In this document: piece by piece, positions 6,750 through 59,169 of the stretch
Layout: each line of letters begins with the position of its first letter
Position numbering within the stretch: the first letter of the stretch is position 1
Source of the DNA: Dissophora ornata
Lineage: Eukaryota; Mortierellomycota; Mortierellomycetes; Mortierellales; Mortierellaceae
Length of the DNA stretch: 59,169 nt
Direction of reading: 5' to 3'
Assembly: GCA_025201705.1 (NCBI GenBank)
Contig: MU616673.1
Coordinates: forward strand, 1-59,169
The notes under the pieces: model-generated
What the model was told of the DNA's origin: nothing
What the model saw: the letters and a program-made list of their open reading frames with translations, nothing else
Database searches by the model: none
Made by a program: the position numbers and the translations under genes

Positions 6750-9116
6750 CTACTCTTGGCGACAGATCTGCACATGTGGATAAGCTTCCTCGAACCACTT
6801 GAGCAACTCGTCCGATACGTTGTACTTTTCAGCATCGATGCGGCACAACTCTGGAAGATGTTCAACCAGCCACTCGAGATCCTCTTTCTTGAAGGCCTGG
6901 TAGAGCTCCAGAACATGCAGCCGCTTCACTGATCGGAACCCATTGATCAATTGGTTCTGTGTGGCGCACGTGAGTTTGGCCCCAGCGCCCATGAGACCCA
7001 GATATTGGATATTGCAGACATCTTGAATCGGGTGCAATGGATGTCGCATCACAACGTCTACGTCAGTTTCATTAAAAGTTTGATCTGCTGTTGCGGCGGG
7101 CCCCATCGAGTTAGTTGTTGGGTCTGGTGCTGAATTCGCAGTATCACTAAGACTGTTCCTGATCTCACGAAGGGTTGTCGCAGGAAATGCAATCGCGTCT
7201 TGAGGTCGCTTCTTATCATTCCCGACGTTGTCCACTGCCATATATGTAGATGAAGATGACTCGCCGGTCTGTCCGGATATGCTCGAATTGTTGGTGTTCT
7301 CATCAGAGCCACTTGCCAACGAAGACATCCTACTAGGCATCGGAGATCCGACCAGGCCGATATGAACGAACAAGATCTGCAGATTCGTGCATGTCCACTG
7401 GCGCCAGTCGAACGACTCAGGCTCAATGTTCACGCCCGAAGCTTCAAGATGTCGGAGCGAAGTGCCGCAATGGCTTAAGAACTGATGCAGCCCATTAGAG
7501 GTGATCTGGGTGCAGTACTGGATATCCAGTCGCGCGACCCTCTTGCAGTTCTCAGCCAGTAGTAACAGTTCCTCGTCAGCTACTTTTGTTCCTGATAAAT
7601 TGATCACTGTCAGTTGCGTGAGGGAGGAGAAGAGAGTACTGAAAGTCTCTCGGTCGATTCTTTTGCAAGATCCAACGTCCAGGGCGTAGAGTCTCGGACA
7701 AGATGCCTTCATAGTGAGGATCATGTCAGTAGTGATTGGCAAGTTCTCGTTCCTGGCCAACGACAGCTCCAGGAGCGCAGGACAGTTCTTGATCAGCCCT
7801 GCAAGATAGGCCGATGACACCGAAATCTCCTTTAATGCCAGATACTTGATTTTGGTAACCGTTGGGCCAACGTCTTGTGAGCTGAAAATGTTATCCAACA
7901 CCAAATTCCCGCTCACACCGTCATCACTGCCTTCATTGATATCGCCATCCAACGATTGTAGCTGGACTCTTGAGAGCGACAAGAATCCAAGGTTTTCGCA
8001 GTCGATCAAAATCTCCGCGAGTTGTCTTCGTTTCAAATTCACGTTGTGCAGCTTCAGTGTTGTAAGATGGGTCAGGTTACGAACTGCCTTGACCGTGTCC
8101 GCCGAGAGTACAGAGCACACCGAACTGAGGACGAGAGATGTGAGCGTCTTGCTGGCCTTGGCCAGAACCTTTTCCTTAATCGCCATCTGTTCCTTGCTTC
8201 CATGAAACGCGATAGCCTTCAATCGCGGGAGGTCACAGAGCAACATCTCTTCGTAGTCGGTCTTGTCTTCGCACTTCATGGTTCGAATATAATGTGCCTG
8301 TGAACGAATAGAGGCGTAGAACCGACCATCGCGCCAATGTTTGTCCACGACATGTTTCCACAGCAACGGCGTGCAGTGAGTTGCCCACATCCTCGAAACA
8401 CGACAGCTGGCTGCAAGAGAGGGCTTATCCAAAAACTCGGCAACGCACCGAATAATCTCAGGAATGTCGAACATCCGATTTTGAACAAGAGGATACATGG
8501 TGGCGCCCTGTGTGCACGGGTCGTTGTCACTGTAGCCTGCCGTACCTTCTTCAGAGCCATCATTCATCGTGCCCGCCTTTGTAGGGTCCTTGTCAACATC
8601 CAAGGCCATGACTGTAGTCTCGATATCTGTAGTTATGTCGCTTTCCTGGCGTCTCTTGTTAGGTCTGGTGAGCGTTGTTCTTGTGGTTATGGTCGATGTC
8701 TCGTGTTGGTGGCTTCTCGAGGCGGTCTTGTTATATTCGGCAGAGGCGCCGCTGACGTCCTCGCTGCTCTGGGATCCACACGTGTACGCTGGCGGCGAGA
8801 GTGTCATGGTGGAAGAACACGCACTGGAAGAAGAGGCCGAGGAGGAAGAAGAGGCTGAGGCGGAAGACGAGGTCGGAGTAATGGACATATCCTCCGCCTG
8901 GGCGGTTGGCAACGTAGTTCCTGAGCTCATGGATTCCTCACTGGTGGCAAAGGCAAAGTTGGTCATCATACGTCGACCGGCGAGTGCCTTCAGGATGGAG
9001 TTGAAGATCCCCATTGGAGTTCCTATATGTTTATGAGCAGGCGGGCCTATTGACGTTCCGTAACGTGTTCGTGCTATGGTTGAATTGTGACGAATGGAGG
9101 GGTTTGAATCAGACAA
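6750..9116 (-). CDS. F-box / leucine-rich-repeat protein, 788 aa
   Basis: A single-exon gene. An N-terminal Ser-rich region (about 60-200) precedes an F-box at about residues 215-260, with the core MFDIPEIIRCVAEFL and a later LLWKHVV. The following 300 residues contain LRR-like repeats (LTTLKLHNVNL, LLELSLARN, LYALDVGSCKRI, LTVINLSGTKV, VARLDIQYC), the pattern of Cys-containing LRRs as in Grr1/FBXL. F-box proteins bring substrates to SCF ubiquitin ligases through Skp1; the LRRs would bind the substrate. The start is uncertain: an internal ATG 34 codons in (9014) gives MGIFNSILKAL and could be the true start. The next gene upstream on the same strand is another F-box/LRR gene, which suggests an old local duplication. 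Confidence 0.85.
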   Translation of the reverse strand: MSDSNPSIRHNSTIARTRYGTSIGPPAHKHIGTPMGIFNSILKALAGRRMMTNFAFATSEESMSSGTTLPTAQAEDMSITPTSSSASASSSSSASSSSACSSTMTLSPPAYTCGSQSSEDVSGASAEYNKTASRSHQHETSTITTRTTLTRPNKRRQESDITTDIETTVMALDVDKDPTKAGTMNDGSEEGTAGYSDNDPCTQGATMYPLVQNRMFDIPEIIRCVAEFLDKPSLAASCRVSRMWATHCTPLLWKHVVDKHWRDGRFYASIRSQAHYIRTMKCEDKTDYEEMLLCDLPRLKAIAFHGSKEQMAIKEKVLAKASKTLTSLVLSSVCSVLSADTVKAVRNLTHLTTLKLHNVNLKRRQLAEILIDCENLGFLSLSRVQLQSLDGDINEGSDDGVSGNLVLDNIFSSQDVGPTVTKIKYLALKEISVSSAYLAGLIKNCPALLELSLARNENLPITTDMILTMKASCPRLYALDVGSCKRIDRETFSTLFSSLTQLTVINLSGTKVADEELLLLAENCKRVARLDIQYCTQITSNGLHQFLSHCGTSLRHLEASGVNIEPESFDWRQWTCTNLQILFVHIGLVGSPMPSRMSSLASGSDENTNNSSISGQTGESSSSTYMAVDNVGNDKKRPQDAIAFPATTLREIRNSLSDTANSAPDPTTNSMGPAATADQTFNETDVDVVMRHPLHPIQDVCNIQYLGLMGAGAKLTCATQNQLINGFRSVKRLHVLELYQAFKKEDLEWLVEHLPELCRIDAEKYNVSDELLKWFEEAYPHVQICRQE

Positions 9117-52107: not shown

Positions 52108-54064
52108 TCACTTTTTTGCTTTTTTCTCGATGCGGGTGGATGAAGAATTTGGTGCATCAGTCGTAGGATCGACGTCGGTGTTGGGGTCCTCCACGGAGAC
52201 GATCGAAACGCCTCTCTTTCTGGCTATTGCTGCTCCCTCACCACTACCGCCTGCTCCATCTCCACTGCTGTCCATGGCCTCAGCTGATGGTCCGCCAGCT
52301 TCTCCTCCACCACCACCACTACCGCCACCAGCAGCGACATCCACCCATGGGTAAGATCCGTCTTGACGCCGAGGTTGGAGGTAGAGCGGCCGCCGCTGGT
52401 GGATCAGGTGGTCCTTGATGGCATTGTTCATGTTCCCGGAGGCCATCACATCGCGCTGTTGGAAGCGTTTGCACGTCTTGCAGTAAATGGTGCGCCAGTC
52501 CGATGTCGCGCAGACAAAGTCATGGCAGATTGGGCATCTCTTTGACGAGTAGTATTCGTTGATACCAATGACTAGGTAACCCAATGACCGAGCCTAAGTC
52601 AACAAAAAGAAAATAAAGGAGGCATTGTTAGTATGTCGCTGTAAATGATTAACCCTGCCGAACAGTCGTCGCAACAGTGTGCCCTACCAGGCGGACGAAA
52701 AACGCCTGGAACGTGCCGTTGAGTGATGGCGGGCCTTGTGAAGCAGTAAACTTGGCCAGACCGACCGCGATCACGACATGTTGGTGCGGCATCCTTGGCC
52801 GTCCGACAGATCCACCGATCATGTTTAGCAAGCCCTCGGCGACCTTGTAAAACTCCTCCTTCCGACAAACTTTGGCATCCCATTGGTGCTTCCAGAAGTT
52901 GGTGTTATTGTAAAAGTCGTTCAAGTCGCTCTCAAAAGCCCTACGCGCCGCAACGTACTCGCAGAACGAGGCACCTTCTCCTTTGAGCGGTGGCAGGGCA
53001 GACTCTAGATCCTGAATGGTCCTGCCGGTAGATGCTCCGGTGGTGCTCTCCTTCCAGTCCTCAAGCCAGCTGGCAAAGCTGCCCGTTGGCTGCGATACGG
53101 CCTTGCGCTTGACCACCAAATCAAAGTACCGAGTCGTCTGAGGCTGTTTAGCCAGTTTGCGCGCCTTCTGCCTAGCCCTCCGCCGCTTCCTATCCCCAGG
53201 CTTCCGCTTGCCTCGCCTTGCTTTCTTCTTTTTTTCATCGCCCTCCTTGCCGTGGGGTCGCATCAATGTTGCAGGGGTCTGGCCAGGCGGGAGCGAGACA
53301 GTGGCGCCGACGATACAAGAGATTCCCAAATCGAGCGACAAGACTGAGACCTGACTCGGGTCAGCAGCCAACAGGCTCTCCACAGCTGCAGATGTGGAGA
53401 AGACATTGCGGGCCTCGGTTAGGTAACTGTTCGTGCCGCCAATGGTGTTGACGAGCGGGTTGGGCAACTTGTCTTCGGGAACACGGCGGTACCGGACAGA
53501 TTGCAACTCCTTCAGATTGAACGCCAGCAGCTGCAGCAGACGGCCATCGGTCCGGATCGAGCCCCTGAGAACATAACCCTTGCCGCGCCACTCCATGGGG
53601 TCAAACGTCTCAGCTCGCAGATACCCGAGGTGTTCACGGAGCCCTACCTTGCCGTCCTTGCCGTCCAAGTCCATGACTGTTGTCATCTTGCGGTAGCCCT
53701 TGTCATGCTTGTTTGGCGGGAGACCGACATCCGTCAGGAAAGTGGTGACAAAGCGGCCAGGCGTTGTCTTGACCAGCCAGTCCAGAGCGTCAGCCAGCGC
53801 GGGAACTATGGCTGGATCCTGAAAGTAGCGATCCTCGGCCATCATACGCCGGATCTTTTCCTTGAAGGTCGGCCAGTGCCAGAACAGCGGGAGCACCTGC
53901 CGCTCAGAGAAACCAATGTAGCGAGCTGCCAGAGGTGAGAGAGGCGCAATACGTCTCGATCCGCCACTGGCCTTGTTCAGAAGCAGGTAGTTCTCAATGG
54001 CAGGAAGCTCGGGGTCGATCATTGGAAGTACCGCGGCAGGTTGGCCATCCGCTTGTGAGTTGAT
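52108..54064 (-). other. Fanzor/TnpB-like RuvC and zinc-ribbon module
   Basis: Exons 4 and 5 of the fusion gene. RuvC-I is LSLDLGISCIV (Asp codon at 53330-53332). Where bacterial TnpB has a Glu after a hydrophobic strand (RuvC-II), this protein reads VVIAVGLAKF without one; a Glu occurs about 38 residues later in INEYYSSKRC (about 52555-52557). The zinc ribbon is CPIC...CKTC, and RuvC-III is the Asp of RDVMASGN (about 52450-52452). Loss of the canonical Glu with a substitute before the zinc ribbon is what has been reported for eukaryotic Fanzors. The intron between FFVRL and ARSLGY sits inside the module. Confidence 0.8.
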
Positions 54065-56490
54065 CTATTGTAAAGGGGAAAAAAAAGATATTGATTCGAA
54101 ATAAGTTTTGATTAGTGCTGCTCTCTTCGCATTTCGTCCGTGACAAAGCTTGGATTAACAACATCACATTACCTTCTTCTCAAGGGCGACCGAGCCGTTG
54201 CGATACATCATCTTGATTGAACGGTAGAGTTGCTTGGTGCTCGACTCGAGCAACCCGGCGGTTGGGTAGGAGACGTTGCGTGGAGGAGCAGGGGGCAAAG
54301 TGATGCCCAGGGAGGTGGCACGTGCAACCAGCTGGCCGACTTGCCGCTCGGCAACAGTCTTGGACTTGATCTTGCGGGAGTAGATATGCGCCAGAAGAAT
54401 CTGGTAAAAGGCGATGAAGGGTTTGTCCATTGCGGACGGCTCGGCATCCTCGTCACCATCATCCTCTGCGTCTTCCTCGCCTTCATTCTCAGCGGGAGCG
54501 CCAGCGGAACTGCTGCTGCTTGCCTGAGAATCCTGGTTGGGTTGAGGCGTCACACGGATCTTGGACTTGACGGCGGGACACAAAGAGTACATGATGGTTC
54601 GGTCGTTCTCGGTCAGACCACGCTCAAAGACAGTCTCGATGAACGCGCCCAAAAACTCCTGTGCGTGTCTCCTCGTCACGCGAACTTGCCCGACAATGTC
54701 CAGGATGCAGGCAGAGACCTCTTTCTGCTGAAGTTGCTGTTGCTGCTCAGACGAGAGGAGCTGATTGGCGTCGGTGGTGGCTGCTGCCGCTGCCCGCTTG
54801 CTATTAGCTTTGACTGTGCCAATGGTAAGAAAGACATGGGGATGCCCCCACGCCATGGCATTGATCAGCTGCCTCTTGTCCATCTCGTCGATCTTGAGCG
54901 GTGGCTTCTTGGCTAGGTCCTGCTCCTTCTTGAGCCGCCGAGCCTCCCGTTGCCGCTTCATCTTCGCCTTCTTCCTCGTGGCCTCAGCTATCGACTGCCA
55001 GTACCTTTCCTCTTGCTCCGCCGTGTATGGCTTCCGCTGGTATTGTTTGCAGATCGATGGTTGCTCGTGCTGCTGCGGTTCTGGGCGTGCCTTGTACGAA
55101 AACCGCGGCCGGTGCACCTGTCGCGAGATTCCAGGCTGGTGAGCTGGCCGGTCAATCACACGGTGCCTTCTAAATTCCCTGTGCCTGCCTTGCCGATTAG
55201 GTTTGGCGTTGCTGGAGCATGACGAAGAGTGCGATAATAGGCAAATAATGTGTTAGACTGTTTGCAAGTGATGGGAAAGCCATATTAGGGGTTATGTGAG
55301 AGAATTATATTGCACCTAATGTGTTACCTATTGATGCTCAAGTTCCCTTGGCGCTTCCGTTCCTTGGCTCTGTCATGCTGGTCCTTGACCAACTTGTATT
55401 GCTGACAGAGCAGCTCGTAGGACAGGGAAGGTACAGGGGAGGCCACCAAAGGCGTCGCAGACTGTGAGGACGGCGACGAAATAGAGGATACGCCCTCTGG
55501 AGCAGCAATCTCCTGGGTCATTGTAGTGAACACGAGAATAGAAGCCGTGAAGTCGATGTCTTCCTGGTTGCAGACTACGAGTGGACTTTCGAGATGCTCC
55601 TCCACCAGGAGCGGCACGTCTAATAGAGAAAGAGTCATGATGAGTCTGGTCATGTCCACGAGGAACAGAGGCGATATGAGCATGCCGGCAAGACATTTGT
55701 TCTTACCTGCATCGGGTAGATCCTTAATAATGCTGTAGTTGGTGGCAATACCCATCGATGGGATGTTCTTGTTCTGGTCATTGCTTGAGACGCATGCCAG
55801 GGCAGTGAACTTGGTGGTCAACAGTCCTGTCTGGGCCAGCACCGCCGCTCTCTTGTATTCGAGGATCTTGACCTCGTCCCACTTGCCCACAGGACGCCAG
55901 ATCGTCGTGACCGAGTCGTAAGCGAAGAAGTCAGAGTCTTAAGACAGAACAATGTCTTGGGGTTGGCACTCTGCAGCGATATCAATGTCGGCCTCGGTTC
56001 TGCACAGGCGCGCATCGAGCAGCTGACCCTGCAGAAAATGGACGAAGTCCTCCCGATCTCGGAGAGACCACTTGAATCCTCCATAGAGACTCTTCTCGAC
56101 ATTCTTGAACATCTGCCTGGTGGGCTGCCTGCCTTGACTGACGCAGTCGCTGAGCGTCTCGAAGGCGGTCTTGGCGGTCTTGAGGGCCTTGACTCGCTTG
56201 TTGTTTCGCTCGCGGTGAGTCTCCTTCTTCTCGAGAGCAGGGGCGCCGTCGACATAGAACGCCATACGCGAGGGGTTGCCGTACTTCTTGAGAAGCTCAA
56301 ACAGAATGGCATGTGCCTTTGTCTTGTCTTCTGCATGCTTGGTGTAGATCCTGCGAATTTTATTGTGGAAGGACAGAACATCTATGCGAATAATGGCATC
56401 GTCAGGCAGGTGGTGGTGCATTGGTAGACGAAGCGTGGGATGGTAGCCTCTTTTCTTGCGGAGCCAAGGGTAGAACCCCTTCAGTCCCAT
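52108..56490 (-). CDS. XPG/FEN1-like nuclease fused to Fanzor/TnpB-like RuvC protein; one in-frame stop
   Basis: Five exons (55707-56490, 55328-55619, 54173-55211, 52688-54064, 52108-52593) with GT-AG borders and matching phases (1, 2, 0, 0) form one frame of 1325 codons, broken only by a TAA at codon 184. Residues 1-261 resemble the XPG-N and XPG-I parts of FEN1-family nucleases. Residues about 360-700 are helical, with coiled coil, Gln-rich and acidic segments. Residues about 720-1325 resemble Fanzor: RuvC-I SLDLGISCIVG (Asp about 950), a basic bridge-like stretch, the region VIAVGLAKFTASQG, INEYYSSKRCPICH, a CKTC zinc ribbon and RDVMASGNMNNAI. A Gly/Ser tail ends in a basic, NLS-like EKKAKK. 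It lies between GPI16 and BUB3 with 108 and 136 bp spacers. No terminal repeats were recognised. Confidence 0.82.
55707..56490 (-). other. XPG-N / XPG-I-like nuclease module
   Basis: This is exon 1 of the fusion gene. Motifs in FEN1 order are: N-terminal MGLKGFYPWLRKKRGY (the Gly at position 2 is the FEN1-type processed end); RIDVLSFHNKIRRIY with the first metal-binding Asp; AFYVDGAPALEKKETHRER with the second; RTEADIDIA with acidic residues; DSDFFAYDSV with two Asp just after the stop codon; and a helix-turn-helix-like stretch TALACVSSNDQNKNIPSMG carrying the last Asp. All acidic positions expected for a two-metal flap-type nuclease appear present apart from the interrupting stop. The assignment is by motif order; the overall sequence is divergent from canonical FEN1. 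Confidence 0.8.
55939..55941 (-). other. in-frame TAA stop in the XPG module (codon 184)
   Basis: The TAA lies between IVLS and DSDFFAYDSV, where related nucleases have one ordinary residue before the conserved acidic pair. The frame is open for 183 codons before it and continues without shift for over 1100 codons after it. No intron can remove it without also deleting the acidic motif. Confidence 0.9.
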
Positions 56491-56598
56491 GGGAGGGGGC
56501 GATGTGTGAAATTGAGACTGACTTTTGCAGGGGCGAAAATATCTGAATTGGTGGCGCTGGCCTACATTTGCTTTATTTCATTGTCATCTCCGTAGCCC

Positions 56599-58961: not shown

Positions 58962-59169
58962 ACTCCTGTGTGATGTCCTTGCTCCTGCTGTAGGATGGAC
59001 TGTCGTGCAGGGAGTGGTTGATCAGAGAATGAGAGAGAACGTCAAGTGATGTTTGTTCCTCCTGCAATGCCCTCATACGCTATTTGACCGCACACACGTC
59101 ACATTTGGCGACAAGAACTAGGACAATGGGCGCGAAAATTCGCTGATTGGCCAATACACTGTAGACTGG
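58962..59169. promoter_or_regulatory. GPI16 upstream region (window end)
   Basis: The last 208 bases contain the promoter and leader of GPI16 on the minus strand. An inverted CCAAT (ATTGG) occurs at about 59147-59151, which could be an NF-Y site. No gene was seen. Confidence 0.45.

Follow-up and report, generated by a model that had tools for sequence, protein, structure and literature searches.

A probably stranded Dissophora ornata gene from a putative family of EXO1/FEN1-like–Fanzor1 nuclease fusions

Gene model and identity of the two halves

The stretch of DNA analysed here (the window) comprises 59,169 nucleotides of Dissophora ornata contig MU616673.1, and its minus strand carries, from 56490 to 52108, a gene predicted to join an XPG/FEN1/EXO1-like nuclease to a Fanzor nuclease. 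Rebuilding the model gave five exons and a frame of 1325 codons, with GT..AG borders and compatible phases at every intron, exactly as the initial annotation had described. Exon 1 (55707–56490), supported by the rebuilt model, a catalytic-residue alignment and a profile match, contains the start codon and most of the XPG-like nuclease, and encodes D37, D81, E166, D168, D185, D187, and D238, the catalytic positions of that family. Exon 2 (55328–55619), which follows intron A (55620–55706), holds the end of the XPG fold and a linker, as indicated by the rebuilt model, a paralogue, and structural alignment. The GNLSIN-S-NAKPNRQ join across intron B (55212–55327), on which the annotation had laid stress, is as it stated, and the orthologue proteins run continuously through the same joins. 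Exon 3 (54173–55211) carries the linker into the N-terminal part of the Fanzor half, placed by alignment to the predicted model of the related protein P0019. Beyond intron C (54065–54172), alignment and motif spacing assign to exon 4 (52688–54064) the RuvC part with the RuvC-I residue D950. Exon 5 (52108–52593), reached through intron D (52594–52687; like intron C from the rebuilt model), encodes the alternative RuvC-II glutamate E1177, a C4 zinc ribbon, the RuvC-III aspartate, a low-complexity tail, and the stop codon, as judged by the Pfam TNB match and motif spacing. In the spliced paralogue on contig C298, the frame breaks at places matching the introns of the window gene, intron A among them.

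The spliced frame had been taken to be open, and here the initial annotation overlooked an in-frame TAA at residue 184 (55939–55941, minus strand), in the middle of the XPG I-region. Outside this codon the remainder of the frame is open, and other species have intact copies. The gene model of P0001, a D. ornata database protein, treats a 90-nt GT..AG stretch (55938–56027, minus strand) as an intron, which drops 30 codons around the stop and with them E166 and D168; the P0009 gene model has the same joint. In the window this stretch is a candidate intron.

The C-terminal zinc ribbon is real, matching Pfam TNB (PF07282) with an E value of 8e-9. The proposed N-terminal XPG-N/XPG-I-like module is supported by a profile of the window's clade, which matches Rad2/XPG proteins in the PDB (E 9.9e-6), but not by Pfam, which found no XPG domain in the window's own XPG pieces because the stop splits the domain. 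Exon 1, truncated at the stop, gave no significant match when searched against the PDB. Among relatives, Pfam XPG_I exceeded its cut-off in P0010 and in the C298 exon, stayed below it in P0002, P0004, P0007, and P0014, and was absent from P0008, whose gene model lacks that part; XPG_N was not reached in any protein scanned. Structural comparison of predicted models recovered both folds: an XPG/FEN1/EXO1 fold in the N-terminal half, whose nearest folds are DNA flap and end nucleases, and a Fanzor1 fold with WED, REC, RuvC, and TNB in the C-terminal half. The rows of the VIA-align structural alignment are mostly occupied by the N-terminal domain. The acidic residues of the XPG active site are kept in the family, and the window encodes all of them in a frame interrupted at residue 184.

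The Fanzor1 motif given in an excerpt of Bao and Jurka (2013; PMC3627910), D-X(125,275)-[TS][TS]-XX-C4 zinc finger-X(5,50)-RD, can be followed in the window protein as D950, 229 residues, SSKRC..., and RD. The alternative catalytic glutamate that an excerpt of PMC10711439 places six residues ahead of the zinc ribbon is present in 32 of 36 aligned database proteins and, in the window, as E1177 with the first cysteine at 1184. Compared with the Fanzor1 proteins SpuFz1, GtFz1, and PpFz1 (PDB 9ceu, 9cer, and 9cf0), the proteins described here have an extra N-terminal EXO1/FEN1-like nuclease of ∼300 residues plus a linker, and their RuvC-I motif is mostly DLG or DGG (DLG, DGG, DAG, and one DPG among aligned genome copies), whereas theirs is DPG. 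PpFz1 is likewise a fungal Fanzor1 bearing an added domain; its FRI domain, as described in the excerpted part of PMC11423790, is inserted within RuvC and binds cyclophilin, whereas the addition here is a second nuclease at the N-terminus. The resemblance to the EXO1/FEN1/XPG (Rad2) 5′ nucleases amounts to ∼15% identity, and the present half differs from them in its fusion to Fanzor and in the uneven Pfam matches noted above.

The fusion in paralogues and other species

Using the read-through protein as query, with X at the stop, we obtained 14 protein matches, including Mortierella alpina. P0001 is 97–99% identical to the window protein, P0002 of Linnemannia elongata is 74% identical over the whole length as a single annotated protein, and related proteins in several species range from 57 to 80%. 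The search for orthologues proposed with the initial annotation finds the same fusion as single annotated proteins in several species. With the spliced C298 paralogue as query there were 62 protein matches, 61 of them named, from genera that we take to belong all to Mortierellales. In these searches ∼8,000 best candidates were scored, at lengths of 0.55–1.75 times the query and with shared exact words needed; the length range favours fused proteins, and with these limits an absence of the fusion elsewhere cannot be inferred. XPG_I and TNB occur together in the public proteins P0024 and P0028. The fusion was not found described: a literature search, mostly of titles and abstract openings, turned up neither an XPG–Fanzor fusion nor a Fanzor or TnpB in Mortierella, and an earlier mention is possible. 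P0067 was considered as transcript evidence and dropped, as it does not extend to the XPG half, and tblastn confirmed none of the 33 stretches matched by a peptide pattern for viral relatives. In its public record the fusion protein P0034 of Actinomortierella ambigua bears the name ‘Elongation of fatty acids protein 2’, apparently a misannotation.

Within the D. ornata genome the whole protein matches at least 61 stretches, a lower bound because 35 of 200 candidates were scored, and TNB matches 59, of which 54 exceed the curated cut-off. Matches to the XPG half number 50 and merge to 41 loci, some of them weak (down to 22% identity) and possibly ordinary FEN-family genes. At 12 of the 41 a TNB follows on the same strand less than 6 kb downstream, and no other arrangement occurs within that distance, a pattern beyond chance. 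In trees of the two halves from 46 proteins, 17 of 43 splits are common, whereas 200 label permutations gave 0.175 on average and never more than 2. These data suggest that the XPG–Fanzor arrangement is one old fusion whose halves have been co-inherited. Evidence from domains, folds, orthologues, paralogues, and co-inheritance alike supports the fusion claimed by the initial annotation. Both trees group the window protein with nine database proteins in a single clade. Among the matches listed, the genome holds a single copy of this clade, and, once the short zinc-ribbon exon is set aside, its other stretches reach at most 41% identity to the window protein. The ratio of nonsynonymous to synonymous substitution rates (dN/dS) was 0.21–0.53 in seven exon comparisons between other copies, two of which used just 54 codons; three further comparisons lacked an open frame and were left out.

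A second, far more divergent XPG–Fanzor subfamily is represented by L051 (C20:5000–12500) and L052 (C228:36000–42074), at ∼20–37% identity and with the RuvC motif DPG; this pair (C20b and C228) keeps the XPG–middle–Fanzor order.

MULE transposons and a candidate hairpin

The clearest mobile context is that of the paralogue on contig C21 (locus L010), which has transposase exons upstream in the opposite orientation. The transposase matches a SWIM zinc finger over the cut-off (E 3.5e-7) and MULE below it (E 1.4e-4). A perfect 25-bp inverted repeat (545–569 and 7849–7873) encloses the fusion gene and the transposase and is itself flanked on either side, at a distance of one or two bases, by a 9-bp direct repeat, TCCAACCAT. 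A divergent transposase lies within 3 kb upstream at 9 of the 41 XPG-half loci, and no other arrangement was found within 3 kb. The MuDR-type Fanzor1 elements ROr-4, PBl-3, and MCi-4 of Mucorales, which have 9-bp target duplications (Bao and Jurka 2013, PMC3627910, in the excerpt), are alike in placing a Fanzor1 within MuDR-type terminal inverted repeats (TIRs) with such duplications. They are reported there without a transposase, and that excerpt does not mention XPG, whereas the C21 element has both a MULE transposase and the XPG half. The initial annotation had guessed at a role in transposition or homing; for the family this guess gains support from relatives that MULE transposons carry as cargo, and the window copy has no transposase. 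Just outside the C21 element, at 8019–8858 of L010, the Fanzor half recurs in partial form, with 95.5% identity to a portion of the one inside. L053 (C275:14500–22500) contains a MULE transposase relative without a detectable XPG–Fanzor partner.

Another copy, on C237, lies between AGGACAATGGGCGC ends 4.7 kb apart, where a transposase search gave no match; the 15-bp ends match each other, and the best 9-bp duplication has three mismatches. The 14-mer of these ends occurs 81 times in the genome, compared with 0 for a control, the pattern read backwards and not complemented. Inverted pairs of this 14-bp terminus spaced 720–865 bp apart, which resemble miniature non-autonomous elements, are found at C7:112191–112988, C60:49575–50440, C75:25617–26398, C77:10291–11129, C242:23231–23951, and C465:20614–21420.

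Guide RNAs of other Fanzor1s are reported to include the TIR and target duplication (PMC10711439, in the excerpt). A GTGTGT-loop-ACACAC hairpin, lying after the stop codon and before the right end, was picked by eye in 13 of 32 downstream regions. Across these 13, 93.6% of cells pair, and in three of the six pairs both partners have changed; of five measures, three (including the covariation score) were reached by 0 of 500 shuffles. A stricter pattern matched 5 of the 32 regions, compared with 25 of 6400 shuffled ones. We regard the hairpin as a candidate part of a guide RNA. None of the family type was found after the window's stop codon, which alone says little since 19 of the 32 regions are without one.

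The window copy, probably stranded, and a proposed mechanism

In the window, the fusion gene is flanked by a WD40-repeat gene ∼136 bp away and by a PIG-T gene, whose best matches carry PF04113; a BUB3-like label for the former was dropped, as tests support a WD40-repeat protein only. A transposase search across the 59 kb gave no match, and there are no TIRs around the gene: the sole exact terminus, at 59120, is beyond PIG-T and points away. Positions 59120–59169 (plus strand), at the contig edge and ∼160 bp upstream of where PIG-T starts its coding sequence, form the left end of a MULE akin to the C237 element: they are identical to the end of that element in 50 of 50 bases and include the exact 14-bp terminus. 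A related transposon thus appears to begin here and probably ended the contig. By eye, 56527–56557, just upstream of the fusion start codon, resembles the GGGCGCGAAAATTCGCTGATTGG part of this end (59120–59150), and may represent either a promoter-type motif or the remnant of a former element end. By locus tags, adjacency of the fusion and PIG-T is found only in the D. ornata record (BGZ58_009201 and BGZ58_009202); in Mortierella sp. 14UC the two tags are far apart, but the PIG-T contig is just 6.2 kb.

The window is identical to P0001 over 260 aligned residues of the N-terminal half, and the in-frame stop makes a functional XPG half unlikely in this strain. The Glu/Asp pair E166 and D168 is kept in 4 of 12 clade gene models and in 32 of 39 others (Fisher p 0.0026, a test that ignores relatedness and annotation errors, with clade membership assigned by us). 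As so few clade models keep the pair, the XPG half may be decaying in the window's immobile lineage. Because this copy has no transposase, no hairpin, and an interrupted XPG half, it is likely that at most the Fanzor half or an exon-skipped form acts here.

We propose, with a probability of roughly 0.55, that the window gene represents a stranded copy from a family of EXO1/FEN1-like–Fanzor1 fusions in Mortierellales, whose mobile form serves a MULE transposon as its accessory gene, is arranged head-to-head with the transposase, and works by guided cutting and resection. A guide RNA derived from the element's 3′ end, made up of hairpin, right terminal repeat, and flank, would direct the Fanzor half to a matching empty site or to a sister copy, where the RuvC site would cut; the attached 5′ nuclease would then resect or trim the 5′ ends and steer repair toward homologous copying, which would restore or spread the element. 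The fusion, the conservation of both active sites, both folds, the MULE linkage, and the 3′ hairpin are drawn from sequence or predicted models, and RNA guidance, cutting, resection, and copy-back are steps that we infer from them.

Several observations weigh against this proposal. The join itself depends on predicted splicing, and the trees of the two halves conflict at eight pairs of well-supported splits, given which local exchange or noise is present in these trees. All ten catalytic positions are held by only 10 of 51 database gene models. The RuvC-I motif of the window is DLG, not the DPG that an excerpt of PMC10711439 gives as ‘near exclusively’ found in Fanzors, a usual rather than universal feature. 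A TIR, a perfect duplication, and a transposase occur together at the C21 element only, whose fusion gene carries a TGA within the XPG half; the other copies tested had no perfect TIR plus duplication. As for the hairpin, there is the choice of the set by eye, the low count of the strict pattern, and two measures that are not unusual (reached by 70 and 463 of 500 shuffles).

It is possible, and the most serious competitor, that the gene is a plain relic, decayed transposon cargo without present function in this strain, as the stop in the window copy and the many copies with stops or truncations suggest; this has to contend with the open remainder of the window frame, dN/dS below 1 in all seven comparisons between other copies, and intact proteins in other species. 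We find it rather doubtful that the copy is a working domesticated host gene, in repair or transposon silencing for example, with the stop spliced out or read through. The initial annotation had allowed for such a descendant, and the single clade copy, the lack of a transposase nearby, the relatives in several species and in D. ornata, and the in-frame 90-nt intron of P0001 with the same joint in P0009 are consistent with it. The stop in the XPG half, the loss of both acidic residues from the skipped form, the scarcity of the Glu/Asp pair in the clade, and a PIG-T adjacency that locus tags show only in the D. ornata record argue the other way. We also regard as unlikely, somewhat more so, that the 5′ nuclease half matures the guide RNA or the element's excised ends as a transposition factor alongside the MULE transposase. 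FEN-family enzymes act on several kinds of 5′ ends, a guide would have to be freed from the 3′ part of the message, and the linkage to the transposase is head-to-head, but nothing specific supports this role, and the nearest folds of the predicted model are DNA flap and end nucleases. Finally, that the halves are two neighbouring genes of one transposon and never one protein is very improbable: although splicing is predicted and genomic copies with listed frames have no single open frame from XPG to RuvC, the C298 frame breaks at matching places, exon 2 contains both the XPG fold end and the linker, several species have the fusion annotated as a single protein, and the halves are co-inherited, in the same order and strand at 12 XPG loci and in no other arrangement.

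Returning to the stranded-fusion proposal, we tentatively suggest that the mobile form is a natural RNA-guided ‘cut-and-resect’ enzyme that heals sites vacated by the MULE and homes, and that its resection half decays once a lineage becomes immobile, as in the window. If so, a guide-directed Fanzor cut and a covalently attached EXO1-like 5′ nuclease would be combined in one polypeptide. Genome-editing laboratories build such couplings of cutting and end processing by hand to favour homologous repair, and the family, if its halves cooperate, would offer a naturally occurring counterpart in which programmable cutting of DNA is linked to end processing. One autonomous eukaryotic element would combine a transposase with an RNA-guided-type nuclease, and the disputed role of Fanzor in transposon upkeep would therefore become testable in soil fungi.

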